From assembly GCA_035048485.1 (NCBI GenBank), contig CM068590.1, positions 9,723,329 through 9,787,328 on the forward strand: a stretch of 64,000 bases of DNA, written 5' to 3'. Numbering within the stretch: position 1 is the first letter of the stretch; the number at the start of each line of letters is the position of its first letter. This stretch comes from Pteria penguin (Eukaryota > Mollusca > Bivalvia > Pterioida > Pteriidae). The position numbers were made by a program, and so were the translations under genes. Positions 25,765 through 63,430 of the stretch are shown piece by piece. The notes beneath the pieces were generated by a model. That model saw nothing but the letters and a program-made list of their open reading frames with translations, was not told the origin of the DNA and searched no databases.

Positions 25765-26931
25765 TTAGAATTTCCATATATGTACTGCATTCCAAAAATG
25801 CATAAAAATCCTTACAAACAACGCTTTATCGTTGGTTCCGCGAAGTTTTCCACAAAATCTGTATCGAAGGTACTCACAAAAATATTATCAGAAATTAAAT
25901 CTGGTCTTCATAGGTATTGCGAAACAGTGTATTCCAAAAGTTGAATGTATCAAATGTGGATCCTAAAAATTCAAAAGAGGTATTAGAAAAGTTTCACTAA
26001 AATTCACTCCATTATGTCCTTAGACTTTTCTACTCTTTACTCAACAATACCTCATCAGAAATTGTATTTACTAGTAAAACGGAAGGCGCAAATTCAAATA
26101 TGTAGTTATAGGCTATGGTAGAACTTACTTTGTCAGGGAAAATTCTTATTCCAAAAATAAATATACTGAAAAAGATGTCGTCCAAATGTTGAACTTTTTT
26201 ATCGATAACATTTTTGTGGTGTTTGGAGAATAGGTTTTTCAACAAATTGTCGGCATCCCAAAGGGTACTAACTGTGCCCCCCCCCCCCCCCTCTGACTGA
26301 CATATTTCTTCACTCATACGAAGCTGAATTCATTCAGTCTTTGCTTTCGCAAGGAAAGAAAGAATTGACTCTTGGCTTCAGTTTCACCTACAGAGATATA
26401 GATGACTTGCTTTCAATTAATAATCCGACATTCGCAAATTACCTTTGCAACATCTATCCAAGTGAACTGGAGGTTAAAGAAACCATAGAAAGTAGTAATT
26501 CTACTTCGTATTTAGAGATTATGTTCTCTCTCAACATTGATGGCCAATTGAACACCTCCCTTTATGATAAACGTGAAAATTTCAATTTCGCCATCACAAA
26601 CTTTCCTTTCATAAGTAGCAACATTCAATCATCGCCCGGATACGGCGTATTCATATCTCAGTTGACACGTTATTCCAGAGCATGTTCAAATTTACAATGA
26701 CTTTGTTCTGAGGGCTAGGCGACTTTCAGATAAGCTACTCAACCAGGGTTATATATGTGCTAAACTATGTTACAAGACTCTTGTTACACAATATGATATC
26801 TCTTTATCCTGACTTTTAAATGATATTCTGGACTGAGACCGAGTCCGATCATTTTACACAGATTTGACACTTTCTATACCAGAAGGTTACCTACTTTGAC
26901 TTCTCCATATATAAATATGTATGGAATTTAC
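25765..26931 (+). pseudogene. Penelope-like element copy 2 (second subfamily), upstream part, split by another PLE
   Basis: This is the longest PLE coding stretch here, in broken frames. It runs MHKNPYKQRFIVGSAKFSTK (about 25797), then YCETVYSKS and SLDFSTLYSTIPHQK (about 26014). Next come PKGTNCAP with a poly-C run (26277-26292), FTYRDIDDLLSINN (catalytic block, about 26381), SELEVKETIESSN and ITNFPFISSNIQSSPGYGV. The C-tract replaces the codons after NCA and shifts the frame. Another PLE copy occupies 26932-28258. The tail of this copy resumes at 28259. Confidence 0.8.
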
Positions 26932-28258
26932 ACGGTTTGACACTTATCAACAGATTTTCGGGATTCTTATGGGCACTAACTGCATTCCCCATATAGCAGA
27001 TTTATTTCCATACTGTTATGACAAAGACTTTATGCATTCTATTCAAACTTCTAAACGTTTCGACCTTATTGATAAGTACTATGACACCTCTAGATATCTT
27101 GATAATATTTTAGTTATCGAATTTGAAAACTATATAACTGACCTGAACTTCAATTAAACAAAGCCAATGCTTCCGATCAGGAAACACCTTTTTGGACTTA
27201 AATATTAAAACTATTAACAACAATATTGACACCACCATATATGATTAACGTGATGACTTTGGATTTCGTATTGTACATTTCCCTTATCTAAATGGTGATA
27301 TCACCAGACTCCCATCATATGGTATTTATATTAGTCAATTGGTTCGGTTTGCTAGAGCCTGCACTAACATTTTGGATTTTCACGAAAAGAAAATTCCCAA
27401 TTATTTTTAAACTTCTTACTCAGAGTTATAGATGTCATAACGAAAACCTTTTTGTAAATTTTGTAGATCTTATTACGATATTTTATCTTAATTCGGAAAT
27501 GTTACTTTTTCAACGATAGGTATCCAGAGGAATTTCGCATCCCAATTTCTACGGTGATCTATTGTACAAAGTACGGAGGGTCAAAGGTTCCGATAATTTC
27601 ATATCGGCTGTTTCTAAAATTATTAAACGCCCTCGACATCAACAATATGACCCCGAGATCATCGCTAAGACCATATGTCTTATATTGGGTCCCTCTACAA
27701 TCCAATGCAGACTTTTACTTGAGCATCGCACGCTGACTAACAGGGTGGTGGGGACTCTATGACGGATCTTGTCCAAACCTTTTCAGAGGAGACAAGGTCC
27801 TGATCTCCGTCCCCTCTGACTGTTAGTTGGGACTCCTATTGATCAAGGATCTGAGCTCGCTTACAGACGGGCAGAGCACAGTTTACTTATGTTGATTTTT
27901 CCTTACATATTTTTTATATTAACATATTATTTTATAAGTTTTTCGCGTGTAATAAATTTTTTGACCTGTTGATCCTAGTTCTCTATTTGGAGGATTATTT
28001 ATAAATTTTTTAAAGTGTGTCCTTGGATTGTGCTGCTTTTGCGGTTAGTGGGAAGTTGGGCGCCCGTAATCCGGTTAACTACAACAATCGATTGCCGTTT
28101 ATTCTTTCAATTGACCGTCCTAAGTCGGTATCCTAAGGGCAACACAATCAAATATTTTTGTAATGTTGTTCCCTGTATATTCTACTATTATTATTTTTGT
28201 GCGCAGGTCCTTGGTGATTTTTGTCATACAGCTTTGTCAGATGTCTTCTCTTTTCTCT
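26932..28258 (+). pseudogene. 5'-truncated Penelope-like element inserted into the tail of copy 2
   Basis: It begins abruptly mid-RT at about YQQIFGILMGTNC (26950) and continues through SRYLDNILVIE (about 27091; the usual DD is DN here). A frame change then leads to SYRCHNENL and FYGDL..KVRRVKGSDN (27550-27600). The 3' tail (27.7-28.25 kb) is shared with the copy at 4.2-5.7 kb. Abrupt 5' truncation fits target-primed reverse transcription. The substituted catalytic Asp plus stops and frameshifts mean it is inactive. Confidence 0.75.
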
Positions 28259-28500
28259 TTTCTACTGGGTATATGTGACGGGTGTTGCTAGCATGCAGGA
28301 GATGCTCACTCTTCCGGGGCACCTGATCTCACTCCATCAAGGGGGTTCATATATGCTCTTCAAGTAGAGATTTTCAGTTGGTTTCTATTTGATTTTCATT
28401 TTTTACTGATTTTGTATGTCCTTTGGATTTATGATTTTCAAACATATGGTTTGGATTTATCCATCATCTTTACATTTATTATTAGATAATAAGAATAACA
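28259..28500 (+). mobile_element. Remaining 3' tail of PLE copy 2 after the nested insertion
   Basis: The sequence ctactgggtatatgtgacgg at 28263-28282 and what follows (gatgctcact, cacctgatctcactccatc, tatgctcttcaagtagaga, tttggatttatccatcatct) is collinear with 41668-41885. In the uninterrupted copy it follows directly after 'cacgatttgact'. Here that point is at about 26932, 1.3 kb upstream. Confidence 0.8.
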
Positions 28501-40674: not shown

Positions 40675-41885
40675 TTTAGAGAATGCAATCAAGTCTTTTG
40701 ACTTTTCGACTCTTTACACAACGATCCCTCATCAGAAATTAAAAGACAGATTAGCGGAAATTGTTCAAAATGCATTTACCAGTGAAGACGGAAGCTGCAA
40801 TTATAGTTATAGGCCATGATAAAACTTACTTTGTTAGGGAAAATTCTGATTCCAAAAATAAATATACTGAAACAGCTGTCATCCAGATGTTGAACTTTCT
40901 TATCGATAACATTTTTGTGGTGTTTGGAGGAAAGGTTTTTTCAACAAACTGTCGGCATTCCAATGGACACTAACTGTGCTCCGCTTCTGGCTGACATATT
41001 CCTTTACTCATACGAAGCTGAATTCATTCAGTCTTTGCTTTCGCAAGGAAAAATACAATTAGGTCTTGACTTCAATTTTACTTACAGATATATAGATGAC
41101 TTGCTTTCAATTAATACTCCTTCATTCGCGGATTACCTTGGCGCCATCTATCCAAGTGAACTGGAGGCCAAAGAAACCACAGAAAGTAGTAATTCTACTT
41201 CGTATTTAGATATTATGTTGTCTTTTGACATTAATGGTCAATTGAACACCTCACTCTATGACAAACGTGACGATTTCAATCTCGCTATCACAAACTTTCC
41301 TTTCATAAGTAGCAACATTCCATCATCGCCCGCATACGGCGTATTCATATCTCAGTTAATACGTTATTCCAGAGCATGTTCAAATTACAATGACTTTGTT
41401 CTGAGGGCTAGGCGACTTTCAGTTAAGCTGCTCAACCAGGGTTTTATATGTGCTAGACTAGCAAAGTCACTGAGGAAGTTCTATGGTCGTTACGAGACTC
41501 TTATTACTCCATATGATATCTCGTTATCCAGACTTTTGGATGATGTTCTGGACTGAGACCGATTTCGATCATTTTACACAGATTTGACACCTTCTGTACT
41601 AGAAGGTTACCTACTTTGACTTCTCCATATATAAATACATATGGTATTAACACGATTTGACTCTTTCTACTGGGTATATGTGACGGGTGTTGCTAGCAAG
41701 CAGAAGATGCTCACCCTCCCTGGGCACCTGATCTCACTCCATCACAGGGGTTTACATATGCTCTTCAAGTAGACATATTTTGTTATTTTCCACTTGTTTT
41801 TCATTTTCACTGATTTTGTATGTCCTCTGGTTTCATGATTTTTAGACTTATGGTTTGGATATATCCATCATCTTTACATGATAAT
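40675..41885 (+). pseudogene. Penelope-like element copy 3 (second subfamily), best preserved
   Basis: It is 5'-truncated at IKSFDFSTLYTTIPHQ (about 40688). A frameshift near 40795 leads to KTYFVREN and MLNFLIDNIFVVFGGKVF. One extra T in a T-run (about 40938) then shifts into the 213-codon frame 40915-41556. That frame has GIPMDTNCAPLLADIF, the catalytic YRYIDDLLSI, NFPFISSNIPSSPAYGVF and LRKFYGRYETL, with a natural stop at 41554-41556. The usual PMGTNCAP Gly is Asp. The tail (41557-41885) is collinear with the split tail of copy 2. No GIY-YIG domain is present. It lies in the ankyrin-gene intron, same strand. Confidence 0.8.
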
Positions 41886-43275: not shown

Positions 43276-43469
43276 GTAACATTTACTCATAAATGGAGAG
43301 TTCCTTAACAATTATTTTTACTCAAGAAAGCCGTCACTGCATGCAATAGATACAAGAGAAAGCAGAAGAAATCTGAAAAAGCTGTATGACACAATCACCA
43401 AGAACATGCATACAAAACATGATAATAGTAAAATATTACAACATATATTAAAATATATTAAAAAATATT

Positions 43470-43721
43470 AAAGCATTACAAAAATATTCGATTGTGCTGC
43501 GGATACAATACAGAATTAGGACGGTCAATTTTGAAGCAACAAACGTCACTCAACTGGCGTGTTAACCGGTTTACAGGAGCCCACCTTCCCACTCACTACA
43601 AAAGCAGCACAATCAAAGGACACACATTAAAAAATTATAAATAATCCTCCATATAGGATACTCCTCAAGAAGTAAGGCCATAAAAAAAAAACTTAATACA
43701 CGGAACGTTTATAGAATAATA
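43470..43721 (-). mobile_element. Antisense PLE 3' tail, part 1 (downstream part, split by a Tigger-like element)
   Basis: The complement is collinear with 27.93-28.15 kb and 5.35-5.57 kb, sharing 'ggaggattatttataa', 'gtgtcctt.gattgtgctgct', 'gtgggaaggtgggc', 'aaccggttaac' and 'ttgaccgtccta'. Part 2 is at 44469-44815, beyond the DNA element. Confidence 0.8.
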
Positions 43722-44466
43722 CAGTGAAACCTCGATATCTCGAAATAATTAATTTAAATCTCATCATACCTTTTATATTTTATGAATATATAAAGAGAAT
43801 ATACTCCAAAACTGAAAACGTCATGTATCCTTTTCAGTAATATCGTAGTTTAAATTCAAGACTGGCTATAACCGTTTTATACTATACATTAAACCGAAGA
43901 CGGGCTAACACAAGAAAAGACACACATCATAATTTTATTTTACTACTATTACCTTGTATAAAAATACATAGATATACAATACACATGGATTCGAAACAAA
44001 AATGAATTAATGAACAATGTAAAGAAATTCCTTTAAATGAATGCAGGTATGAAAAAGCACTAATTACAATTAACATTTTTTAATTGAAGGTTGAATTTGA
44101 TAAGCTATCATCATTTACTAATATTTGGTATAAATAACACGGTACGCACGAATGCGATTGATTATGTAAATACTGCGGCTTTGTACACCGACACGGTCAA
44201 TTTATCACACCACGCCAGCGACCTGTCATCTATGGTAAACGACACGGGAGATATTGTCAACAAGAAGCCAACTTCGAGACCGGGTAAATAAGAACTTCGG
44301 GAATTCAAAATGTATTCGAGATAAGCATGGTATTTGATATATCAGTGTTCGACACATCCGGGGTGATTTTAATCATAATATGAAGGATTTTTTCGGGACC
44401 GACGTTCAACTTCGAGATATCACGGGTATTCGAGATATCAGTGTTCGAGATATCAAAGTTCGATTG
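43722..44466. mobile_element. Tigger/pogo-like non-autonomous DNA transposon
   Basis: The left end CAGTGAAACCTCGATATCTC (43722) and the complement of the right end, CAATCGAACTTTGATATCTC (ending 44466), match at 18 of the first 23 positions. The element is flanked by TA at 43720-43721 and 44467-44468. The multiple 'atatctcgaa' subterminal copies, the ends and the TA duplication fit the Tc1/mariner-Tigger (pogo) group. The 745-bp interior has no transposase, and the 66-codon ORF at 44091 resembles nothing. It interrupts a PLE copy and so is younger than that copy. Confidence 0.85.
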
Positions 44467-44468
44467 TA

Positions 44469-44815
44469 TGTATCAATCAAAAATGTAATGCGACATTAAC
44501 ATAAGTAAACCGTGCTCTGCCCGTCTGTAAGCGAGCTCAGATCGTTGATCAATAGGAGTCGCGACTAACAGTCAGAGGGGACGAGAATCAGGACCTTGTC
44601 TTCTCTAAAGAGGTTTGTACAAGGCTTGGCACAGAGTCCCCATCGACCTGTTAGTCAGCGTGAAACGTTCAAGTAAAAATCTGTATAGGGTTGAAGAGAA
44701 ACCCAATACTAAACCTATGGTTTTAGCGATGACCTCGGGATCATACTGTCGATGTCGAAGGCTTTAAATGATTTTAGAACCCGCCGAAATGAAATTATGG
44801 GAACCTTCGACCCTT
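44469..44815 (-). pseudogene. Antisense PLE copy, part 2 (RT C-terminus and start of tail)
   Basis: The complement reads through the degraded 'gtcatcgctaaaaccatagg' region and 'cctctgactgttagtcgcga'. It continues into 'ctgagctcgcttacagacgg' and 'gcagagcacggtttactta', collinear with 27.62-27.89 kb. Frameshifts and stops are present throughout. Confidence 0.75.
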
Positions 44816-44867
44816 GTTAATCATTTGTACACTAGATGACCAAAGTGCAAGTAAGACAAACAGTATA

Positions 44868-48277: not shown

Positions 48278-49596
48278 AGACCATTCTATCGCGTTATATA
48301 CGGACACGACCATCTTTAGATCACGTGACTATCCGCCATTAAGGTGCTGAATATGGCTATCATCTGCCTAGTCTCGTATCATCAATAAAGACTTTTAAAC
48401 AAGTTTACAAGCCCTTGCATCAGGTGATACTACCTGCTGTTTTTGTTTTGTTTTGTTTTGTTTTTCATTTGTTTGGGTTGTTTTTTTTTTTTTTTTATTA
48501 TTATTATTTATTAAGTTGTTTTTGCGGTTTTGACAGTGATTATAACTGAAATAGAGACTATTTGTCATGGGTTGCCTTAGTAACATTACTTTACAAAACC
48601 TAAAACAAACGGAGATAGATTCAATTTTATCGCTTATAATGCGAGATTTTATGAATAATTGACTGTTTAGTACTGATCTATTAGAATTAAATTATTTCAG
48701 AGACATAAGTCTCTAATTAATTCCATAATTGTTATTTCGATTCATGTCCCAATGTCGAGTTGTAGCTTGCACTAAAAGAAAATGGATTATGTAACAGGTG
48801 TAAAACCAGGTTACCACCTGTGGTCAGTCATATCTCAGCATAGCTATCCTTGGCAAAAGTGAAAGCGACATTCCAGAAATTGTCGTCCGTATTACGCAAT
48901 AAACCTACTGGATTTAAGTCGGCCCCATCATCCGTAAGACTATTATTGATACACGTGTATGTTGATTGAAGCAAATTAATTAACATTGCATACACGAGGG
49001 AAGTAATGCAGTGAATTGATGTTCTTTTTTTATCCAATGGCGGATCCAGTGCCACCTTTGCGAGTGGGGGGAGGGGGGGGGCGAGATGCGAATTTTGTCA
49101 ATTTTAACAGAAAATGGGCCAAGATACAAGGTTTTGGTAAAACTTTTGGGTCACTGCCGGAGTGGGGCGAGCGACCCCTCCGCTCCCCCTAAATGTTTAT
49201 CTAGGTTATTTTTGACAAGTTGATTTCGGTACTTGGGAAGTATCGTCTCTGTAGAGTTGTATTCCATTTTCATAGAACTGCAGGTCATTTTCCAAAAGAT
49301 CATATACGAATTCTTTTTAAGGATTTTCCGAAACTTTCAACCCCAGGTTTTGCAAATACGGATAGTCTGAATTTGGAAATAGTTAAATAGATGATATTTC
49401 TCATCCCCGAATACAACAATTCATCTGCATACTGAAATTTAGTGATAATCTATCTGAGTAAAAGTTACGAAAACTCTTCGTTTGTGAAATGGTCCGGGTG
49501 TTGATTTTGGTATTTGCCGGAACATAGACAATGATTTGAAAGTAGTCTATGTCTCTGATATGTATTTAATAAGTTTTATTATTATTTAATAATCAT
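48278..49596 (+). mobile_element. Family A TIR element, copy 1, left part
   Basis: It starts agaccattctatcgcg and is collinear with copy 2 (51190 onward) for about 1.3 kb. Shared blocks include 'catctttagatcacgtgact', 'atcaataaagacttttaaac', 'ggattatgtaacaggtgtaa', 'ggggcgagcgacccctccgc' and 'catatacgaa'. It stops at 49596, exactly where CAGAGA begins. Its right part is at 61658-62041, and the two parts together (about 1.70 kb) match copy 2 in length. No transposase is recognised, so it is probably non-autonomous. Confidence 0.85.
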
Positions 49597-49601
49597 CAGA
49601 G

Positions 49602-49602
<1 letters not shown>

Positions 49603-49673
<71 letters not shown>

Positions 49674-49674
49674 C

Positions 49675-49750
<76 letters not shown>
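49603..49750. repeat. (TA)n followed by (TG)n microsatellite
   Basis: TA repeats to about 49691 with two small interruptions, then TG repeats to about 49748, ending in cgcgcgcac. Long ORFs here on both strands are artefacts. Confidence 0.97.
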
Positions 49751-49754
<4 letters not shown>

Positions 49755-50631
49755 CACGGTGTCAATTGGGGACAATAGTATGAATACACACCTTCGTACC
49801 GGGGACACACTCCAATCGGGGACGTCCCCGTTTGTCAAAACCATTAAAATCGTGCTCAGAGGCAAAAAATTAACGGGATCGGTATTAAAAATATTATTTT
49901 TGGATGTTTTGAAAAATGTCCCCATTTGAATAGTTTACATTGGTTTCGTGTGTTCTTACATTTATTTGATCGCGCCAAATTGTGTTTTATACACTTTTGA
50001 GATGTCCCCGTTTGTTCGTTATGCTACACAGTCACGGACACGGTGAGATAGTAATGGCGGCATTTTGAATTTAACACTGTTTAAAACACAGCACAGGCCT
50101 GCAGCGGATATAAGCAAGGTAATTATTGAAATAGAATCATTTAGTTCTAATTGAAAAGCTCATTTTTAATTTGTAGTCGGTTAAAGATCTCCTGAGAGCT
50201 CATGTTTATTGTTTATAATGTACAAAATGCCGACTTTAAATAAAGCTTACTTACTTAATTAATAAGTTACTTACTTTAGAGTTTAGTCTTTAGATCTACT
50301 TAATTACAGAAAATTTTGCATTTTCAATATAATACGGTTACATACATATAAAAATCTAATAATTTGAGCTATCGACCAAGATTAACTGTTGAAGAGTCGG
50401 AGGAAGTTCAAAGTAAATGTTTGGTGTTTTTCACATGTTGACTAGATCTATTTTGTAACTTAGGCAGAATTCAATGAAAATTTACATGCTTGTTCCTCAC
50501 CATATTATGCACAAAATTTGAGCTTCGTTTTTGATCGGAGAGAAAACATTGCCGCTGTTGCTAGAGATAGAATTTAACATCTTCGACTCCTTCTCTGAAA
50601 CTACTGGGCAGAATTTAATGAAAATGGGGTG
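49751..50631. other. Unassigned sequence within the 12-kb segment
   Basis: Several 'gtccc(c)' phrases occur near 49825, 49918 and 50005. Positions 50473-50585 match 53098-53210 as a direct repeat, sharing 'atattatgcacaaa', 'gccgctgttgct' and 'atagaattt'. No gene is supported. Confidence 0.5.
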
Positions 50632-51189
50632 CAGGACATTTCGGTACAAACACTTTCGGTACACAAAAATAGGTCGTTTCGGTACATGACTTTGGTCGTT
50701 TCGATACAGGTACCTAAATATCGGTTCAGAAGCAAATTGAAATGGATATTATAACAATCTATCATGAAAAAAGTAAAAAGATCAGTACTAGCAAACTGTT
50801 AGGGAAATGTACGTGCCATGCTGTATGTCCCATTGGTACTTCAGGATATGCGATATGTGTGACCTTATTTAGAAAACAATAATGAAGACTATATACAGTG
50901 TATATATGTTTATTTATTTATTTTTTTTACTCATATGTCTTATTTACCTCGCATACTTGTGATCATGCATACTTAAAAATACATGTACCTGTAAAGACCG
51001 TAAGCTGAACAGTAGACATATAGACATAAACTTTTTAACTTTTGTATGGAAGTACACTGCGTTTTTCTTGAAGTGCCTAAAGTTTGTTAAGGAACTTTTT
51101 AGCGTGGATGCAAAGTGTTACTTGATTAAGTTTATGTATACATATACGTTTGGGCCTATGTCCTGTAGTAAAATTAACCCATGTGTCTG

Positions 51190-52874
51190 TAGACCATTCT
51201 ATCGCGTAATACACGGGCGCGGCCATCTTTAGATCACGTGACTATCTGCCATTAAGGTACTGAATATGGCTATCATCAGCCTAGTCTTGTATCATCAGTA
51301 AAGGACTTTTAAACAAGTTTACAAGTCCTTGCATCAGCTGATACTACCTAATGTTTTTTTTTTTTTTGTTTATTTTTGTTTTTTATTAAGTTGTTTTTGC
51401 AGTTTGGACAGTGATTATAAGTGAAATACATGTACAGACTATTTGCCATGGGTTGCCTTAATAACATTACTTTACAAAACCTAAAGCAAATGGAGGTAGA
51501 CTCAATCTTATCGCTTATAATGCTAGTTTTTATGAATAATATACTGTTTAGTACTGATCTATTAAAATTAAATTATTTCAGGGACATAAATCTCTGATTA
51601 GTCCCATGATTGTTACCTCGATCCATGTCCCAATGTCACGTTGTAGCTTGTACTAACAGAAAATGGATTATGTAACAGGTGTAAAACCAGGTTATCACCT
51701 GGGGTCAGTAATATCTCAGCATAGGTATCCTTGGCAAAACTTAAAGCTACATTCCAGAAACTGTCGTCCGTATTAGGCAATAAACTTACTGGATTTATTT
51801 TGGCTGTTTAACCCCATCATCCGTAAGACTATTATTGATACATGTGTATGTTGATTGAAGCAAATTAATTAACATTGCATACATGAGGGAAGTAATGCAG
51901 TGAAATGATGTTCGTTTTTATCCATTGGCAGATCTAGCGCCTCCTTTGAGGGGGGGGTCGAGGGGCGATTTTAGTCAATTTTAACAGAAAATTGGCCAAA
52001 ATACAGGGTTTTGGTAAAATTTTGGGTCAATGCCGGGGGTGGGGCGAGCGACCCCTCCGCTCCCCCTAAATCCGCCACTGCTTATCTAAGTTATTTTGGA
52101 CTAGTTGATTTCGGTACTTGCGAATTCAATTTTCATAAAACTGCAGGTCATGTTCCAAAGGATCATATACGAAATTTTTTAAAGGATTTTCCAAAACTTT
52201 CAACGCCAGGTTCTGCAAATACGGAATGCCTGAATTTAGAAATAGTTAAGTAGATGATATTTCTCATCCCCGAATACAACAATTAATCTGCATACTGAAA
52301 GCAGAGATATATATACACATATGTATATATGTCTCTGCTGAAAGTTAGTGATAATCTTTCCGAGTAAAAGTTACGAAAAAAATCTTCGTTTGCGAAATGG
52401 TCTAGGTGTTGATATTGGTATTTGCCGAGACATACTAGACTATGTTTTGAAAGTAGTCTATGTCTATGATATGTATTTAATAAGTTTTATTATTATCTAA
52501 TAATTATCTAATTAATCTGTAATACATAAATACAACATTCATTACTGAATAAATAACTTAGCTTGGTGACCAACATTTTTGGTAAGGCCGGAGAAAGGTT
52601 CCTTTTCATTTTCTGTTTTTTTTTATATTTAAATTTTAAACTGAAATTTATAATGGACTATAAAAACAAACACGTTTATGAATTTTCAGTCCTAGTCACC
52701 GATGAGACCATTCAATTAAACATTGATAAACACAAATATTGTTTTAACCACTACGCTCATAGGTCATTTTACTATCTTGATAGCTTTTTTCAGTACCGTA
52801 ATGGCGGATACGACCACGACACCTATTGGTGAAGGGCAGATAACTATTGAGTAACTGCCCAATAGAATGGTCTA
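51190..52874 (+). mobile_element. Family A TIR element, copy 2
   Basis: Starts tagaccattcta (51190) and ends with its exact complement (52863-52874). The match continues imperfectly inward. It is 1685 bp including a 36-bp insertion at 52302. The largest internal frame (52563-52832, ending in HDTYW) has no recognised motif. It is nested between the two halves of family C. Confidence 0.85.
52302..52337. mobile_element. 36-bp near-palindromic mini element (family B) with 7-bp target duplication
   Basis: A near-perfect palindrome with ends CAGAGATATATA...TATATGTCTCTG. It is flanked by ctgaaag at 52295-52301 and at 52338-52344, and is absent from the matching position of family A copy 1 (about 49435). 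The empty site in copy 1 (catactgaaatttagtg) confirms that it is an insertion. Confidence 0.8.
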
Positions 52875-53065
52875 TAGGAGTAAGCGTCACCTGTTTGACT
52901 AGTCACACTTGCTGTCTCATGTCACACACAGACTAAAATATAGTGAATAAATCACCCAAACATATGTACCGAAACATCTTTTTAGTGTACCGAAATGTCC
53001 TTTTCATTGTACCGAAACTTCTTTGCTTGTACCGAAATGTCTTTCTTATGTACCGAAATGTCCTG

Positions 53066-53901
53066 TACTGAAACATCCTTGTACCAAAACGTCTAGCATT
53101 CTGAAAATGTACATGCTAGGTCCTCATCATATTATGCACAAATTTTTTGTTCCTTTTTTGGATCAGACAAAAAACATGGCCGCTGTTGCTAAAAATAGAA
53201 TTTGACATTTCTGAAGTAACAGAGATTCACCGAAATAACACTACAAATTACCGATATAACTGTTTTATGGTCACAATTTATTATTTTCATAAGAAAGAAT
53301 AATACATTTCAGTAGAATATGACATATGAAATAATAAAATTGTCGGGTAATATATCATGATGAATAGAGAAAACTCTGACATTTATGGAGCTCACTTTCT
53401 CTTTATTTTTTCTTTTTTTTATATTTCTTCTTCTTCTATCCATCAAAGGAGTAATACTTATTGAACAAATGTCAAGACTCCTGTGCGCATGGTAGCTAAC
53501 GGCTATGTACAGGTTAAAAATAATTAAAAGCCAGACAGTTTCAGTATTCTTGATCAAAGAGATAATTTCTGATGATTACATATTTGATACTTCTATAGAT
53601 TGTGTTGTTTTATATGTTTCAGTACATATTCTATACATTGTCACTTTTTGGCGCTTCTAAGTTCTGTTCATCTTATATTCTGAATAGTTTGTTTTTAATT
53701 TTTGTAGTTAAAACGGAGTCTGCAAAATCAGAATCTTTTGAATGTGAGTATAATTTTATTCTATTTTTTTTTATTCTATAATTTTATCCCATCAGTGTGA
53801 AAGGGTGTGAAGTAACTGATTTTAAATAGTTCATTGATATCTAACACACAATTTGCATAAGTTTTTGTTTTATAAACATATTATATCATTATAAGTAATT
53901 A
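53066..53901. other. Unassigned sequence
   Basis: Contains the second copy of the 50473-type direct repeat (53098-53210). A possible 36-bp exon at 53708-53743 (acceptor ttttgtag, donor gtgagt) was considered, but its phase does not fit the downstream frame. Confidence 0.4.
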
Positions 53902-54616
53902 ATCATTGATCTGTTGATGAAAATTTCATCTTTGTGTGGGGCTGAAGAAGCAGCTCTTTTGAGGTCAACAAAGTTGAGAAAAAAATTGCCACTCTTTCCC
54001 AGTTAGTAATTTTTAAAGAAAATGAGCTTGATCTACTAGAACTAGCCAGCTTTATGGGTTATGACATCCGTGCTCACCGTGAATATTATTGATTACCAGA
54101 TACTGTATTCAGCAGAAAAAGGGGAATCATGAGCAATATTGGACAAAGTCTTGATGAAATCCATGTAGATCCAGAAGGAGGTAAATATTTATTCTTAAAT
54201 TCAAATTTAGATTTTTCATAAAAGGCTGATAAATTATGTTATATGTTAATTGAGCGATTAGTTCAAAAGAGCTCCAAGCTTGAAAGAGACAATGATAGTA
54301 ATTTAGATTCAACTAACAAAAATTGGACCAATCATTTCAGAACAAATTAATATTAACCTTCTCTTGGACTTTTTAGCTCACCTTATCAATTTCAAGTAAA
54401 AGAGACATATATTGTCATAGTCTCATAGTGTCTTTTCTATCGTCATGCTTAAAATATGTTGATTTAACTTTGTTTGTTGGTTGCTTTTGTTGATCAAAGG
54501 TAGACCAGGTATCAAAAGGTGAGACATTTTTTAATTTTATTTTCTTTTGATGTTTTTTTTTAGAAATCCCGATCGTTGGAAGTGATGATGATGGCGGTGG
54601 TGATGATGATGATTAA
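53902..54616 (+). pseudogene. Tyrosine-recombinase-like C-terminal fragment, decayed, with one intron
   Basis: The frame reads LCGAEEAALLRSTKLRKK (about 53938-53990), then a one-base loss in an A-run (about 53983-53990). It continues IATLSQLVIFKENELDLLEL, ASFMGYDIRAHREYY, an in-frame TGA (54089-54091, fitting a CGA-to-TGA change of Arg) and LPDTVFSRKRG, then SLDEIHVDPEG. A phase-1 intron (54181-54563, gtaaat...ttttttttag) leads to EIPIVGSDDDGGGDDDD and TAA at 54614-54616. STKLRK...ELDLLA.FMGHD...HREYYRLP is a pattern I recall from uncharacterised invertebrate and fish proteins. Its lGHd...HxxYY block resembles the catalytic C-terminus of tyrosine recombinases. It is 5'-incomplete. The acidic tail partly comes from a (GAT)n run. 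Confidence 0.6.
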
Positions 54617-57388
54617 GATGGTGATGATAATGATAACACAGCAGAAAATAGACTTATCTTTGAAACATTCTTCTGATGGTAAGATATTTTAGTAATAATC
54701 TAGAAATCATTATAAAGTCTTATTATAGAAAACTTTTTGGAAATACACTGTTACTTGTCCAAACTGGATGCTAATGGGATTCTAATATTTGGACTTGGAC
54801 ATCAATAGTCCGTTGTGTCTTCCAGTACAGTAAAAATACTGCGGGATCATGTGAAATTCCAGCTATCATTGTATAAATTAACAAAAAGAATGTACCGGTA
54901 TGTCATACCAGAAAACGGCCTTTTTGCGATCTATTATATGTTAATGTCCAGTTGTTTTCTGTTATATCACGATCCCACAGCATTTTCCTTGTAGGAAATG
55001 TCATCAACTTTTCATATATCACAAGATTTTTATGATCATTTGTCGTTAAGAGGGGGATGCTTTTGGTTTATCTTCAAGGTTGTTCTGTTTTGTTCTATTT
55101 TTAGAACTTAAGTCACGTGAAAATTACATAGTATTGAACGCATTAAGGATCATGTGTTCAATTAAAAACTAAAAAGTCTTGTAAAGATGATAGCTAAATT
55201 GTGACAATATGTGACATGAAATAGTAATATTCGTTTTTATTAGGAAAAAAACGAAATCGGCCTTAATTGTGCTGCATATCATGCATGTGTGAAGTTTCAA
55301 GTCTCTATGCCTCTTGGTTTAAAAGTGCTAGCCTTAGGTTAAAGTTTTTGAAAAGTAGGTCTAACATCAAGGTCAAAGGTCATGGTCCCAAATGAAAGGG
55401 CCTTTCACAAGGTATGCATGTGTGAAGTTTCAAGTCAATCAAGACTCTACCCCTCTGGGTTCAAAAGTTATAGACCAGGTTAAAGTTTTTGAAAAGTAGG
55501 TCAAACTCTAAGGTCAAGATTAAAGGTCATTGTCCCAAATGAAAGAGATTTACAGAAGGTAAATATGTGTGAAGTTTCAAGACTCTACCCCTCTTAGTAC
55601 AGAAGTTATAGCCAAGGTTAAAGTTTTTGTGTCAAGCCTCTGGTGCTGACACTAAGGCTATGACATTAGCTCCCCGGACATTCGTCCCAGCTCACTAAAA
55701 ATTACTCTTAAAAAACTAATATACAATGTCAATTGTCGTCAAATCAGCTATCACAAATTTGCAAACTATCTAAAGTGTTTATCGTGAAGATACATGTATA
55801 TGCCTTGCCACGTTTTTTTATGCGCCCCCAAAACTTTTCGGGGGAACAAATAGTCGCTGTCATATTTGAATTTGATATTTCACACAATTGTACATTAGGA
55901 TACATGCTCTATGACAAAGGTCATTCAAAGTCACTCGGTAAAGGTGAAGGTCATTTTTGGTGAAAATATGTTTAAAAAAATTCACATTTTCCAGATTATC
56001 GAGTTCCTGGATTAACGAGACATCACTGTAAATGACAGCCTATGATCTTATTTTGATTTTAATCTTGCACCCTTTAACCAATAATATATCGCCTCAGACA
56101 CAAAGGTCAAAAACCTTGTTAGATTACAGGTTGTCATTTGTTATTTCTTCATTAGTAAATATTTAAACTTTGTCTGAAATAATCTCCCCTTGTCTATGAT
56201 ATAATCATCAAATTTCAGGATGTATTGAGGAATGTCATGCTACAGAATATGGAATGTATTCCTGTTTGTCTATTTATCTCTTTGTTAATTTGCCACACTT
56301 TCAACTTGGCTATAACTTTGGAACCATATGGATAGGCTTTGATAATTCATGTGTATTCACTTGTAGAAGAATGTTTCAACTTATACCACAGTTTTAACCT
56401 ATTGGTCATTGACATCTTTGACATTGACATCATGACATCTTTAATCTCCTTTCATTAATTTTTATCCTTTGTCTTGTCTTTAAACATAAGCATTCAAAGA
56501 GCATTATTCTTTTTACATAGCAACGAAAATTCCATGGAATGAAGGGGAGAAGAATGCAGTGAGAAAACATTTTGGAAAAACTTTATTTCCATGAAACTCC
56601 CTGGAAAAGCAGAAATTGAAAAGTGCTTGAAAGTAGAGAAAGTTCTGAAAAACAGAAGTTGGAAAATTGTAAAGGACTTTATCGGCAACACTTTTACATC
56701 CAAAAAACGTACATGAATCATACCTTTAAGACATCATATTGAACTTTCAAGCTCATGCCATACCCTGTCATCTGCCGTCAGTCTGTCCATCCAGCTTTCT
56801 GTCGATCGAGACATCCAGCTGTAAACAATTGCTAGTTACCCTTATAGTCTATTCATAGCAGAAAAATATTTATTGGTTATCTTGTTTCCCTTATGTTCTT
56901 GCTGTGCATGTTCATTTTGAAGATCCTCCCCCAGAGGCTGAGAAATGGTCATGGTCAGTTTCCAAGTTGCCAGCTAAACATAACAGCACATAGGGATCAC
57001 TGTCCAGCATCTATTTGTCTGTCTGTCCGCTAGTCACACTTTATGTGGTAGTCATGTTCATGCTTAGCAGGAGACACACTGTTCCTTGAACATTTGGTTC
57101 CTATATAAGCCTAAGTAAATCATGTTATCCTATATCTTCACAAATTATTCATGCCAGAAACCTCTATATGATCCATAATTGTTTTCCTTAGGGTCTAGTT
57201 GTGTATGCGTGTTTTTGATGAAAATCATTCCCAAGGGGATTGAGAAATTGGTGTGGTTATTTTATTTTTACATATATAAGACTTTTTAAATCATTTAACC
57301 CTATCTTCTCATTCGCTATTCATGCCAATGTCTTTCCTTTAGGGTCAAGATATGCCTTTGTGATTTCTGCAAAGATTCTCCCCAAGGA
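54617..57388. other. Repeat-rich non-coding stretch
   Basis: No gene is supported. Positions 55280-55640 hold three copies, about 130-150 bp apart, of a block with 'gtgtgaagtttcaagtc', 'agactctacccctct' and 'aggttaaagtttttg'. Positions 55820-56400 and 56700-57350 are similar to receptor-like 'cctat..cttca' repeats and carry no conserved frame. Confidence 0.45.
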
Positions 57389-57545
57389 GGAAGCCGGCAT
57401 GGCCTAGTAGTAGCCGGCTCGACTTTACATGTAGATCAGGAGGTCCGGGGGTTCGAGTCCTGTTCTGGTCATGTGGGTGTCCTTTCTTTCGGATGCGACA
57501 GTATAAACCGAGGCCCCGTGTCACGGAAGGCATGGCACATTAATC
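57389..57545 (+). mobile_element. tRNA-derived SINE, same family as 36135-36278
   Basis: The tRNA-like head has an A-box-like TGGCCTAGTAGT and B box GGTTCGAGTCC. A body with GGTGTCCTTTCTTTCGGATG, GACAGTATAAACCGAGG and GTGTCACGGAAGGCATGGCA follows. The minus-strand ORF at 57345-57533 is its antisense reading. No clear target duplication. Confidence 0.8.
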
Positions 57546-57554
57546 CAATTTGTA

Positions 57555-57990
57555 ATCAAAGATGGCCGCTATGGGCCCTGATTGGTTGACACATTTTCGA
57601 CTTCTTCTCCAAAACCACTTCACAGAATTTCACCAAACCTTATAAGAAGTAAGTACTCAAGATCCTCTACAAAGTTTGTGTTTTTCGAGCTGATCCGTAA
57701 TCAAAGATGGCCGCCATGGGCCCTGATTGGTTGACACATTTTCGACTTCTCCTCCAAAACCACTGCACGCAATTTCACCTAACTTTATAGGAAGCAAGTA
57801 CTCAAATCCCTCTACCAAGTATGTATTTTTCGAGCCAATCCGTAAATCAAGATGGCTGCCATGGACCATGATTGGTTGACACATTTTCGATTTCTTCTCC
57901 AAAAGTGCTGCACAGAATTTCACCAAACCTTATTGGAAGTAAGTGCTTAAAGTCCTCTACCAAGTTTGTGTTTTTATGACCCAAATAACA
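57555..57990. repeat. 145-bp tandem monomers, array 1 (about 3 units)
   Basis: 'aagatgg' phase points at 57559, 57704 and 57849 give a 145-bp period. Each unit has 'aagatggc.gccatggg', 'ttggttgacacattttcga', 'cttctccaaaa', 'cacagaatttcaccaaacct' and 'aagtactcaa'. The period is close to nucleosome-core length. The minus-strand 89-codon ORF is an artefact of the repeat. Confidence 0.9.
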
Positions 57991-59909
57991 TTGGAATCAT
58001 GAATTTGATGTATATAAGGACATGCATTCCTACTGATGTATAACAGAACTCCACTTCGTCAATGTAAAATTTTCTTTATAAGATTTTTATTATTATGCTT
58101 TCTTTGCAATGGTAAACTTGAGATTTCATATTTTGACTTTTGCTGAATAAAATTTTGTCTATATTGTTATGTTCTTTGAAAATGATTTAGTTTTAAGTCT
58201 ATTTAAAAACGAAAAATGATAAAAATTGTTAAAAATCACCAAGCACTTGATTGATTGATGATGTCTGCCTGTCTGTCCATCTGTCAACATTTTTGTTATT
58301 GTTTCTGATTGATGCAGTATTTAAGGAAATTTGTTAGTTGAGTTATGAAGGTTATCCTTGACAAGATCTTTAAGATTTTGTGGCAACATTTGACCTCAAA
58401 GGATTTATTTTCTATTTATTTTTGGTCTATGATGAATCCAATTAAGTTGATTTATTTAACTTTTGGCCTCTGATTATTGGAGAGCACATAGGACCTGTTC
58501 CTTTGTCTGCTTCTCTGTAAAATTTAAGCTTCGTTGTGAATGTTTTATGATAAAAGTGATAGGGCTTTGATATATCACAGATGTATAACTTAAGACATGA
58601 TCTTTCTATTGACACAAAGATTTCATCATTATGACCTTAGATTTTGGCCTACATTTAAAAAACTTTTACTTTGGCCTTATGTCATGACTGGTATATGTTA
58701 TGATTGATATTTAACATGTGTATTCCTTGAGACAAGACCTTTAATTTGGTTAATTTTGGTACCACAATTGTTCACTTAATGACCTTCTTATTTGAGTTTT
58801 AACATTTTTGGATTACAACTTTATTTACTGAAACAAAATCGTAGGCATCTGTGTATAACAAACGAACATTATGTATATATGAAAATATATTTATTTCTTG
58901 ATTTAAGAGTTTAACCAACTCTTTAAGAGAAAATTTAATGCAACTTTATATCAATCTTTCGACATAATGATACTTTTAGTTTAAAAAGTGTTACTATTTA
59001 GGCATCAAGGTCTTCAACTTAACTGTGCGTGAATACTTACATTTTAATTAATATTGTAACATTTTAATAATTACAAATATAGTTTGTATAACAGAATCAT
59101 GGAGTTAATAAATATGAATAAAATTTAATGGTATTGCTTGATATATTTATCTTTATGCACCCGGCTTGAAAGGTCCGAGGGCTTATAGTTTTTGGATCAT
59201 ATGTCTGTGTGTCCATAATTCTGTCCCGCTTTACACAAAATGCAATATGCAATAACTTTGACGTAGAAACTTCATGTGGTATGAATTCTCAATAAATAAA
59301 ACCCTTTCAATTGACACCAAGGTCAATGACTTTGTAACCTTGAGCTTGACCTTTCTCATCAATATACTTCTTGTTCAATACTGTAAACAAAGTATCTGTC
59401 ATTGCAATGGCAGTTTCTATATGGTTATTGTTAGCCAAGACAATGTTTTGTCTTTCATGTTTTCAAATTTCATCAAGTATAGACAGCAAGTGTGGCAACC
59501 AAAATAGGAAATGACAGCTCTGCCCGGGCACCTAGTATCACTTCTAGCTCACAAGGTGTTTGTCTATACTCCCAATGGTACTCCATTGTAAGTACCATCA
59601 TGACACTTTGCTGGGATATCTTTAATTTTTGAATGACTCCCAAATTTTTAGCATGGGAATTTATTTTGAATATCTGAAAATTCACATTTTTATAGATAAG
59701 GATAGAATTTATGAATGAGCAGCTTGTGATGGTTTCGTAAAACGAAAGTTTCTTCTCTGTTTCTTGAACACAAGTTTTAGAAAAGAAAAAATAAGAAGAG
59801 TTACATGTAGCTATGCAATACAGAGACAAACTACTTTATAAAAAACAGAACATTAGACTTGTAAACTAAAGGTGATAATGAGAAATGAATAAGCAAGATA
59901 TCTTCATTA
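57991..59909. other. Non-coding stretch
   Basis: AT-rich. A block at about 59155-59470 (tttatgcacccgg, ggcttatagttttt) resembles 55815-55960 in layout. The minus-strand ORF 59473-59829 (118 codons) has no recognisable motif and no splice context. It was not accepted as a gene. Confidence 0.4.
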
Positions 59910-61265
59910 GACATAACTATACCTTTAATTATACACAATGTCCTCATTTGACATGATTGTACCTTTGATTAAACACAATGTCCTCATTTGACATGGTTGT
60001 ACCTTTGATTACACACAATGTCCTCATTTGACATGGTTGTACCTTTCATTACACACAATGTCCTCATTTGACATAATTGTACCTTTCATTACACACAATG
60101 TCCTCATTTGACATGATTGTACCTTTGATTACACACAATGTCCTCATTTGACATGATTGTACCTTTCATTACACACAATGTCCTCATTTGACATGGTTGT
60201 ACCTTTCATTACACACAATGTCATCATTTGACATGATTGTACCTTTGATTACACACAATGTCCTCATTTGACATGATTGTACCTTTCATTACACACAATG
60301 TCCTCATTTGACATGGTTGTACCTTTCATTACACACAGTGTCCTCATTTGACATGATTGTACCTTTGATTACACACAGTGTCCTGGTTTGACATGTTCGT
60401 ACCTTCAATTACACACAATGTCCTCATTTAAAATGACTAAACCTTTGGTTATACCCAATGTTCTCATTTGGTATGATTGTACTGTCGTTTATACACAATG
60501 TCCTCATTTGACATGATTGTACCTTTGATTATACATAATGTCCTCATTTGACATGATTGTACCTTTGATTATACACAATGTCCAGGTTTGACATGTTTGT
60601 ACCTTCGATTATACACAGTACCCTTATTTGACATGACTCTACCTTTGATTATACACAGTGTCCTCATTTAAGATAACTAACCTTTGATTTTACACAATGT
60701 TCCCATTTGGTATGATGTACCTCCGATTATTCACACAATGTCCTCATTTGACATGATTGTACCTTTAATTATACATAATTTCCTGATTTGACATGACTAT
60801 ACCTTTGATTATACACAATGTCCTCATTTGGTACGATTGTAACTTTGATTATACACAATATCCTGGTTTGACATGTTTCATATGACATGACTATACCTCT
60901 GATTATACACAATGTCCTCATTTAAGATAACTAAACCTTTGATTTTACACAATGTTCTCATTTGGTATGATTGTTCCTCCGATTATACATAATGTCCTCA
61001 TTTGACATGATTGTACCTTTAATTAAACATAATGTCCTCATTTGACATGACTATACCTTTGATTATACACAATGTCCTCATTTGGTATTATTGTACCTCC
61101 AATTATACACAATGCCCTCATTTGACATGATTGTACCTTTGATTATACATAATGTCCTCATTTGACATGACTATACCTTCGATTATACACAATGTCCTCA
61201 TTTGACATGGTTGTACCTTTGTGTATACACAATGTCCTGATTGGACGTGTTTGTACCTTTGCATT
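59910..61265. repeat. 40-bp tandem array, about 33 units
   Basis: Unit: 'tgtcctcatttgacatgatt' followed by 'gtacctttgattacacacaa'. The 40-bp step is exact and nearly homogeneous to about 60410. It becomes degenerate, with indels and 'ggtatga' or 'aagataa' variants, toward 61265. There is no coding frame. Confidence 0.92.
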
Positions 61266-61591
61266 TTGCATGTGTGTACCTTCCATTACACAATGTTTAT
61301 TTTGATAACTTGTAAATTTTTTCTCGATTAGTTTGTGATTGAAGCTAACAAAAACATTAGTTCCCGATTGACATGCATAAACTCACACACATGTGTATAC
61401 CCCTGTCCCCACTTGGTATGCACAGAACACATTAGGGTTTTTTGAAGATAGGGAAAAATTAAGACCAGATAAGAAATGGGGTATTTTCAGAACATATGTC
61501 TATAAAATTTTGTTTTGATCAAGCTAAAAACAAAGGTGTCCCCTGTTGGCTGGTTACTACATTTGTCCTCATTTGACATGGTAGACACGTA

Positions 61592-61648
<57 letters not shown>
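61592..61648. repeat. (TG)n microsatellite
   Basis: TG dinucleotides directly before the TATATCTCTG right end of the 12-kb segment. It pairs with the (TG)n at its left end. Confidence 0.97.
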
Positions 61649-61652
<4 letters not shown>

Positions 61653-61657
61653 CTCTG

Positions 61658-62041
61658 TAATTATCTAATTAATCTGTAATATATAAGTAAATACATCAAT
61701 CATTACTGAATAAGTAACTTAGCTTGGTGACCAACATTTTTGTAAGGCCGGAGAAAGGTTCTGCCTTTTCTTTTTCTGTTTTTTTTTTTCATATTTAAAT
61801 TTTAAACTGAATCTCATAATAGACTATAAAAAGAAATACGTATATTAAATTTAAATCATATTCACCGATCAGATCATTCAATTAAACGTTAATAAACACA
61901 AATATTGTTTTAACCACTACGCTCAAAGATCATTTTGACTATCTCGATAACTTTTTTCAGTACCGTGATGGTGAATACGATCGCAACACCTATCGGTAAA
62001 GGGCAGATAACTATTGAGTAACTGCCCTGTAGAATGGTCTA
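61658..62041 (+). mobile_element. Family A TIR element, copy 1, right part
   Basis: Collinear with 52487-52873 of copy 2. Shared blocks include 'taattatctaattaatctgt', 'acttagcttggtgaccaaca', 'aggccggagaaaggttc', 'agggcagataactattgagt' and the terminal 'tagaatggtcta'. It joins to 48278-49596 across the 12-kb segment. Confidence 0.85.
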
Positions 62042-62639
62042 TAGTAAAACAGTATCATTTCGAGAAAAAATGTGTTACAAGAAGCTGGAAATTTCGATGT
62101 TAATCTTAACGCCAAAATGCAATTTCTTAAACATATTTGTTTTATTGTTTTGTAAGGATTACCTTAAGGCCTTCCATGACGCCATTGACACTGTAATCCA
62201 ATAAGAACTGCATTGATTGATTGATTAAAGATTATTTATGCAAAACGGTTTGTAGCTCTCTTGAGCTGAAGCTGAAGTTAAAGCGCGCCGTCCGTCGTAT
62301 ATTTTTTAGATCACCTGAGCCATAGGCTAAAGTGAGCTATTGTCATAGCGCGCTGTCCGTCGTCACTTTTTTTTTTTTACATTTTCGACATCTTCTCTAA
62401 AACGGCTTGAAGAAATTTGATCAAACTAAGCATACATAATGTACTCAAGATCCTCTATCAAAATTATGTTCATGATCTAGATCTGTTCAGGGGTGGTTCC
62501 TTAGTGGGCAAAGGGTACCCATCTTCAAAAATCTTCTCCGTCAAGTGCTGCATGGATTTGAAAACTAATTGCATCTAGACAATCTTTAAGAATAACTTAT
62601 TAAAAATTGTGTTCGGGGTAAATTTTCAACCCAATCTAT
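62042..62639. other. Unassigned sequence, likely start of a bivalve-type repeat
   Basis: Contains 'gatcacctgagccataggct' followed by 'aaagtgagct' (about 62310-62340) and 'gcgctgtccgtcgtc' twice, a phrase I associate with a common bivalve repeat that leads into the 145-bp monomers. No gene. Confidence 0.4.
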
Positions 62640-63430
62640 ATTCCAAGATGGCCGCTATTGGCTCTGATTGGTGAAAACATTTTCGACCTTTTCTTAAAAC
62701 ACGCTTTACAGAACTTCAAACTTAACAGGAAGTAAGGACTAAAAGTCCTCTATCAAGTTTGTATTTTTTTCCCCTGATCTGTAATCCAAGATGGCCGCCA
62801 TGGGCCCTGATTGGTTGACACATTTTCGTCTTCTTCTCCAAAACTGCTAAACAGAATTTCTCAAAAAGATACAGTAAGTAAGTACTCAAGGTCCTCTACC
62901 AAGTATGTGCTTTTCAACCCAATCCATAATCCAAGATCGACGCTATTGACTTTGATTAGTTGAAATATTTTCGGCTTCTCCAGTGCAACCACTTCATGAA
63001 ATTTTAACAAAATATAGAGGAAGTAAGTACTCAATGCCCATTATCAAGTTTGTGTATTTCGACTCGATCCGAAATCTAAGATGGCCGCCATGGACCCTGA
63101 TTGGTTCACATATGTTCAGCTTTAATCCATAACTCATTCATAAAATTTCAATAGATCTTAAAAGAAGTAAGTGATCGAGGTACTCTACCAAGTTTGTGTT
63201 TTTTCGACCCAATTTATCATCCAAGATGTTCGCCCAGGGCTATGATTGGATGACATGTACAGGATATAAAATATCATACGAAAATCGTATCTTTTGACCA
63301 AATCTGTCCTTAAAGATGGCTGTGAAAATCTATGATTGGCTGATATACTTTTTGACATCTTCTATTTAACCACTTCACATAATTTCACCAAGTCTTATAG
63401 AAAGTAAGTACTGAAAGTACTCAAAGTCTT
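62640..63430. repeat. 145-bp tandem monomers, array 2 (about 5 units)
   Basis: Phase points at 62645, 62788, 62933, 63078 and 63223 give steps of 143, 145, 145 and 145 bp. Units are diverged copies of those at 57555-57990. Confidence 0.9.

Follow-up and report, generated by a model that had tools for sequence, protein, structure and literature searches.

Footprints left by the excision of P-type transposons are already known. The P transposase makes its second-strand cut 17 bp within the inverted repeat, which generates unusually long 17-nt extensions (excerpts of PMC7776569). For Galileo, another member of the P superfamily, target duplications are described as mostly 7 bp and in some cases 8 bp long, with the target sequence GTATTAC (excerpts of PMC4168063). 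Here, we describe a 36-bp palindrome located in a 64,000-nucleotide stretch of the genome of the bivalve Pteria penguin (GenBank assembly GCA_035048485.1, contig CM068590.1, positions 9,723,329 to 9,787,328 of the forward strand; hereafter, the window). It occupies positions 52302-52337 of the window, within a nest of mobile elements abbreviated as follows: A1 and A2 for copies 1 and 2 of family A, B12 for the 12,061-bp segment 49597-61657, and C for the family C element. Judging from sequence comparisons, the palindrome, carried by A2, is probably the excision scar of a departed transposon.

As the initial annotation of this stretch had indicated, the 36-bp insert has CAGAGA and TCTCTG ends and is flanked by a perfect 7-bp duplication. 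The latter reads CTGAAAG and lies at 52295-52301 and 52338-52344. The window contains 193 CAGAGA/TCTCTG pairs, two of which are flanked by a 7-bp duplication with at most one mismatch: the palindrome (52302-52337, CTGAAAG/CTGAAAG) and B12 (49597-61657, TAATCAT/TAATTAT). When the analysis was restricted to short pairs of up to 60 bp, with up to one mismatch in the ends and in the duplication, two were found in the window and none in any of 20 dinucleotide shuffles.

The host genome (838 Mb, 49 contigs) was searched with the pattern CAGAGAYATATATA-N(0-30)-TATRTCTCTG, the reversed pattern serving as a control. With spacers of 0-30 nt, 1305 forward and 1329 reverse matches were obtained while the control gave 0; spacers of 31-60 nt added 47 and 37 matches. 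By extrapolation, the genome would contain about 1,600 palindrome places. The palindrome tallies given below refer to the 61 distinct places found among the 100 matches listed. Perfect 7-bp duplications flank 37 of these palindromes, 7-bp duplications with at most one mismatch flank 51, and perfect 8-bp duplications flank four others. Perfect duplications of 4, 5, 6, 9 or 10 bp were seen at none of the 61. Random placement yielded a mean of 0.067 of 61, with a maximum of 2 in 1,000 trials, and swapping of the flanks yielded 3/3,660. The 37 perfect 7-bp duplications are biased in sequence, with T at position 2 in 25/37 and A at position 6 in 23/37. Finally, empty sites were seen in two related copies: L054, compared with L047, and L024, compared with L019, contain the 7-mer once and no trace of the insert. 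The 61 palindromes comprise 46 different sequences; identical forms also occur, three 28-mers and four 32-mers being alike. Because L012 and L013 share one insertion and L025 and L052 another, no more than 59 of the 61 can count as independent.

Four of the listed matches with spacers of 31-60 nt extend for more than 30 nt into a longer end, CAGAGACATATATACACAGAGACTGGAAACTC, to which three of them conform exactly and one with one change. This parental end has 247 + 258 matches in the genome at up to three mismatches, as compared to 0 for the control. Viral contigs were also scanned, with 0 matches to the family A end and 0 to the parental end. At least 32 facing pairs of the parental end are present among the 100 places listed: 29 span 1,801-1,956 bp, two about 1.54 kb and one 3,995 bp (C1:77383687-77387681). 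As most of the facing pairs are of similar length, this end apparently belongs to a family of inverted-repeat elements about 1.93 kb long. The parental inverted repeat measures at least 32 nt.

The arms of the palindromes follow this end up to a sharp limit. Among the 122 arms of the 61 palindromes, agreement with the parental end spans exactly 18 nt in 45, 19 nt in 4 and more in 0. Genome-wide, matches to arms of at least 18 nt number 663 + 640 (1303) and those to arms of at least 19 nt number 42 + 37 (79). This cliff at nucleotide 18 is what would be expected if the inverted repeat were cut internally with a long stagger. The commonest form (5/61; 127 exact places genome-wide) is the head-to-head junction of two 18-nt ends, as predicted for full fill-in plus blunt joining.

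The following series of events could account for these data. A transposon of about 1.93 kb with inverted-repeat ends CAGAGACATATATACACAGAGACTGGAAACTC would insert with a 7-bp, sometimes 8-bp, target duplication. On exit, its transposase would cut one strand at the edge of the element and the other about 18 nt inside, leaving 18 nt of the element as a single-stranded tail on each side of the donor gap. These tails would then be filled in, trimmed or extended by added letters, and sealed through end joining. The expected product is a target copy, up to 18 nt of one end, filler, up to 18 nt of the other end and the second target copy. Many different sequences (46 in 61) are in line with this scheme because repair junctions are expected to vary. 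The dead scar, having hit a family A element, would have been amplified with A, thus reaching A2 and the nest, and B12 would be a related element with the same end type that has not departed.

As to the enzyme, a P-superfamily (Galileo-like) transposase is a candidate cutter with about even chances, by analogy with the described systems. Duplications of 7-8 bp, which characterize this superfamily, are found on the palindromes (37 perfect 7-bp and 4 perfect 8-bp of 61). Terminal inverted repeats are present as well, as shown by the facing pairs of the 32-nt end (at least 32 among the places listed). In the genome, 57 matches to the P-type RNase H domain were found, some of which are two pieces of one copy, and one locus, L099, contains an 813-aa open frame with this domain.

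Several observations weigh against the excision scenario or against its P-type enzyme. Arms stopping at 14-16 nt account for 46/122, and trimming must be common because many arms end short of 18 nt. Six of the 61 palindromes have neither a 7-bp duplication with at most one mismatch nor a perfect 8-bp one. One 36-mer is found at 127 places, so that identical short forms exist at different sites, as a mobile unit would also yield. Scars have multiplied inside other repeats and the counts are not counts of independent events. On the enzyme side, no THAP domain was found in the two P-type frames checked, L099 and L095, and no facing pair of these ends was found at 30 P-type loci (within 1.5 kb on either side). 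Inside the 32 listed parental pairs, the matches on contigs C1-C3 gave 0/9 for P-type, 0/28 for THAP and 0/39 for hAT domains; this overlap test is weak because the listed parents, of about 1.93 kb, are likely to be non-autonomous, and on C3 they reach no further than 23 Mb. At 60 hAT and P-type loci (L065-L124), a search for further inverted repeats flanked by 7- or 8-bp duplications gave six, all at hAT loci and none with CAGAGA. Overall, no transposase is tied to these ends.

Could a hAT element with 7-bp duplications, similar to hAT7, have made these sites? The CAGAGA end can be likened, as we assume, to hobo/Hermes ends, and the bias toward T at position 2 and A at position 6 presumably corresponds to nTnnnAn of the hAT target. 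Duplications of 7 bp are reported for hAT7 of rust fungi (excerpts of PMC12730594). The usual hAT duplication is 8 bp (5-7 bp in named subgroups), while here it is mostly 7 bp. At 30 hAT loci, taken from 150 scored matches, no CAGAGA end pair surrounds the transposase domain within 1.5 kb. In addition, excision footprints of hAT elements are not known to include the transposon ends. A hAT element was rejected as the source on account of these 30 loci; it was retained as a rival explanation, which we consider unlikely.

The palindromes could themselves be mobile, as ultrashort non-autonomous elements of 24-50 bp with a transposase recognising about 15-18 bp at each end. Duplications and empty sites would be expected in that case, as would recurring identical forms such as the 36-mer at 127 places or the 28-mers and 32-mers among the 61. 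That 46 sequences are found in 61 argues against such mobility, as does the position of the nucleotide-18 cliff within a longer parental end. Moreover, joining two 18-nt ends head to head gives exactly the sequence that is seen most often, and it would be sterically difficult to bring together ends separated by 36 bp on the same duplex. We consider this explanation quite unlikely. It is very improbable that these 24-50-bp palindromes are the smallest transposable elements known, made of two fused 14-18-nt ends moved in trans, with 7-bp duplications and more than 1,000 copies in one animal genome.

Another explanation, also very unlikely in our opinion, is that the palindromes are remnants of abortive gap repair, or of internal deletion following insertion, without a fixed stagger. 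Random deletion would produce broad arm lengths, whereas 79 matches were counted at nucleotide 19 against 1303 at nucleotide 18. Spacers of 31-60 nt are also rare. On the other hand, variable centres agree with this explanation, as do the four listed matches mentioned above, in which the parental end is followed for over 30 nt.

We then come to the nest in which the palindrome lies. According to the initial annotation, A1 is split at 49596/61658 by a 12.06-kb segment with CAGAGA...TCTCTG ends and a 7-bp near-duplication, and all these features were recovered. The left part of A1 (48278-49596, plus strand) terminates in the 7-bp target copy TAATCAT (49590-49596, plus strand) and aligns with A2 51191-52507. 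The right part (61658-62041, plus strand) opens with the target copy TAATTAT (61658-61664, plus strand) and aligns with A2 52501-52874 at 87.5% identity. A2 itself (51190-52874, plus strand), which is located within C, has TAATTAT at the uninterrupted site. In BLAST comparisons, the two halves of A1 cover A2 from end to end and overlap by the duplicated bases only. Once rejoined, A1 is 89.1% identical to A2 over 1,646 ungapped columns. The halves abut at the target copy.

B12 (49597-61657) has the ends CAGAGACAAATA...TATCTCTG, with (TA)n(TG)n on the left and (GT)n on the right. The motif TGTCAAATGGGGACA, picked post hoc from the comparison of the two ends of B12, has 34 matches at up to three mismatches in the 64 kb, 33 of them within the B12 end zones and one outlier at 10520. 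Three matches lie on the left (49760 on the plus strand; 49823 and 49917 on the minus strand) and 30 on the right, all on the minus strand. The right-hand matches are not independent because most of them belong to a 40-bp tandem array. The informative inverted pair is the one nearest to the B12 ends, at 49760 and 61564. On the left, the subterminal motif reads TGTCAATTGGGGACA (49760-49774, plus strand). The right subterminal zone (59904-61578, minus strand) comprises the 40-bp tandem array at 59904-61261 plus more motif copies on the opposite strand, the last one at 61564-61578. Given the end matches, the duplication and the inverted arrangement of TGTCAAATGGGGACA in the end zones, B12 is best read as a single element and not as two truncated copies.

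When the 40 CAGAGA sites of both strands were compared to the 18-nt end, the best scores were those of the two insert ends and the two B12 ends (17, 17, 15 and 15 of 18), the next one being 12. Only the rank of B12 counts as independent because the genome-wide end was discovered via the 36-bp insert. A single end type common to B12 and the 36-bp insert is thus supported. As the ends of B12 rank among the best matches, B12 is plausibly an uncut relative of the scar parent, still in place, whose TA/CA-rich ends would have expanded into microsatellites. The annotation had grouped B12 and the insert as one family B. The shared end type stands but the single class does not, B12 being an inserted element and the 36-bp insert the probable scar of a departed one. 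The explanation of an ordinary nest, in which B12 and the insert are unrelated and share CAGAGA by chance, or in which the assembly was joined at the (TG)n tracts, is barely credible: CAGAGA is only 6 bp long and a single base distinguishes the two target copies of B12, but the B12 ends rank directly behind those of the insert, the A1 halves abut at the target copy and the window contains no N.

B12 is not classifiable by its content because six-frame Pfam scans returned nothing at E <= 0.1. At 53946-54190, it contains a coding-looking fragment, KENELDLLELASFMGYDIRAHREYY, then a stop and LPDTVF...GQSLDEIHVDPE. By eye, this fragment resembles the C-terminus of a tyrosine recombinase; it has no Pfam match, and a homolog search yielded 46 candidates sharing words, none at E <= 0.01. 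Repeats of about 145 bp (AAGATGGCCGCCATGGGCCCTGATTGG...) are found at 57545-57975 in B12 and at 62377-63430 just outside A1.

Element C extends from 50627 to 53101 (2,475 bp, or 790 bp minus A2), with subterminal TTTCGGTACA repeats at either end. Its presence and the nesting of A2 within it agree with the annotation, in which C was said to end in perfect 17-bp inverted repeats. However, an 8-bp duplication, TGAAAATG, flanks C at 50619-50626 and 53102-53109 and lies outside these repeats. The ends of C are set at 50627 and 53101 because this duplication bounds them, and the 17-bp repeats are inner, subterminal copies within the TTTCGGTACA set. A 107-bp pair also flanks C (50475-50580 and 53102-53208, 83% identity) and looks similar to the ~145-bp repeats.

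Overall, the nesting of B12 in A1, C in B12, A2 in C and the palindrome in A2 is supported. The order deduced from it stands for the layering: A1 preceded B12, C entered the interior of B12, and A2 entered C. As far as the nesting goes, C could have moved into B12 either before or after the latter's insertion into A1. The palindrome, in contrast, is not the last event. Indeed, two other A copies, L012 and L013, carry the 36-bp insert at the identical site. With a 156-bp probe spanning the insert, the best 40 of 451 candidates were scored, a choice biased toward insert-bearing copies, and 40/40 places (39 besides the window) had the insert, at 93-100% identity. A1 has no insert and shows CTGAAAT once where A2 has CTGAAAG twice. 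Because other A copies have the insert at the same site, the palindrome predates the entry of A2 into C: it was already in a family A lineage, and A brought it. We also considered that the 36-bp insert could be B12 collapsed between its (TG)n tracts, as argued from position 7. This was rejected, L012 and L013 having C at this position and A2 having T.

Traces of other possible scars were seen in the same elements and elsewhere. A1 and A2 share an 18-bp piece, possibly an older scar, reading CAGAGACATAAGTCTCTA at 48698-48715 in A1 (flanks ATTATTT/ATTAATT) and CAGGGACATAAATCTCTG at 51579-51596 in A2. The sequence GAAAGTAGTCTATGTCTCTG, at 49538-49557 in A1 and 52449-52468 in A2, could be an arm of a second scar type. 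This type, with the end CAGAGACATAGACTACTTTC, was observed in L047 (668-731), L054 (487-540) and the window (49538-49557), and suggests a second parental family. At C1:40956240-40956315 and at other matches with spacers of 31-60 nt, two scar types lie about 15 bp apart in a recurrent 76-bp arrangement. Because this arrangement recurs at several places, scars have also been copied within another repeat. In L084, one of the 30 hAT loci, a 38-bp palindrome of the same kind (415-453, flanks ACCATAC/ACCAGAC) adjoins a hAT transposase domain.

Elsewhere in the window, SECIS_1 matches were obtained at 5145-5207 (36.1 bits) and 27751-27813 (44.3 bits), the gathering score being 35. Both lie inside one repeat family, with related stretches at 4322-5592, 26059-28475, 40767-41879 and 43354-44841, in which a reverse-transcriptase-like frame can be recognized by eye. 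An 89-bp tandem array of about 10 copies, 97% alike, occupies 16035-16918.

If the scar interpretation is true, many hundreds of departures by one transposon family can be read from the genome. Each scar would locate an excision, and each junction would show how the repair of a break proceeded. Sequence data by themselves would reveal the cleavage offset, 18 nt, of a transposase that is as yet unstudied, and the frequency of departure could be gauged by setting the scars against the copies still present. Scars inside another transposon would be copied along with it and mimic recent nesting, as here. Some word searches of the literature returned no paper, and among the titles listed by others none concerns a genome-wide family of such scars with a cliff at nucleotide 18 and 7-bp duplications. 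A search for the letters CAGAGACATATATA returned nothing, and one for the shorter CAGAGACATATA returned only a paper on resistance in E. coli. In a survey of bivalve transposons, the terms 'P element' and 'excision' are absent from the main text (term search of PMC10294476). On this basis, such a genome-wide scar record seems undescribed, while the P-type cut itself is documented.

Among known systems, Dada elements also have 6-7-bp duplications, and Dada-U6 has a subterminal CAGAGAAGA. However, the Dada elements in excerpts of PMC3706591 are without terminal inverted repeats and target small RNA genes. Dada was rejected here in view of the facing terminal repeats and the varied targets at 61 places. 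The likeness to hAT7 resides in the 7-bp duplications (excerpts of PMC12730594). The two differ in that hAT7 is described from fungi, that many of its families have a TET/JBP gene, and that footprints retaining the ends are not mentioned in those excerpts. Miniature inverted-repeat transposable elements (MITEs) are, like the palindromes, short and palindromic with target duplications, but most palindrome sequences here are not common to several copies. MITEs are recognized by many copies of few identical elements; here, 46 sequences are found among 61, yet one 36-mer is present 127 times. A length of 24-50 bp is also below the usual MITE size.

The closest parallels are with the P superfamily. 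For the P element, the long staggered cut predicts donor sites with both target copies plus about 17 nt of each end (excerpts of PMC7776569). Here, by comparison, up to 18 nt are kept, the duplication is mostly 7 bp and not 8 bp, and some 1,600 palindromes in one genome are extrapolated; no transposase is linked to the ends described here. Real P footprints look as predicted, filler included. In Drosophila, the inverted repeats of Galileo are long and its transposase is known, while in the present case the repeat measures at least 32 nt and no transposase is linked to it. The two have in common duplications of 7 bp with a few of 8 bp, and a target with T at position 2 and A at position 6, as in the GTATTAC cited for Galileo (excerpts of PMC4168063).

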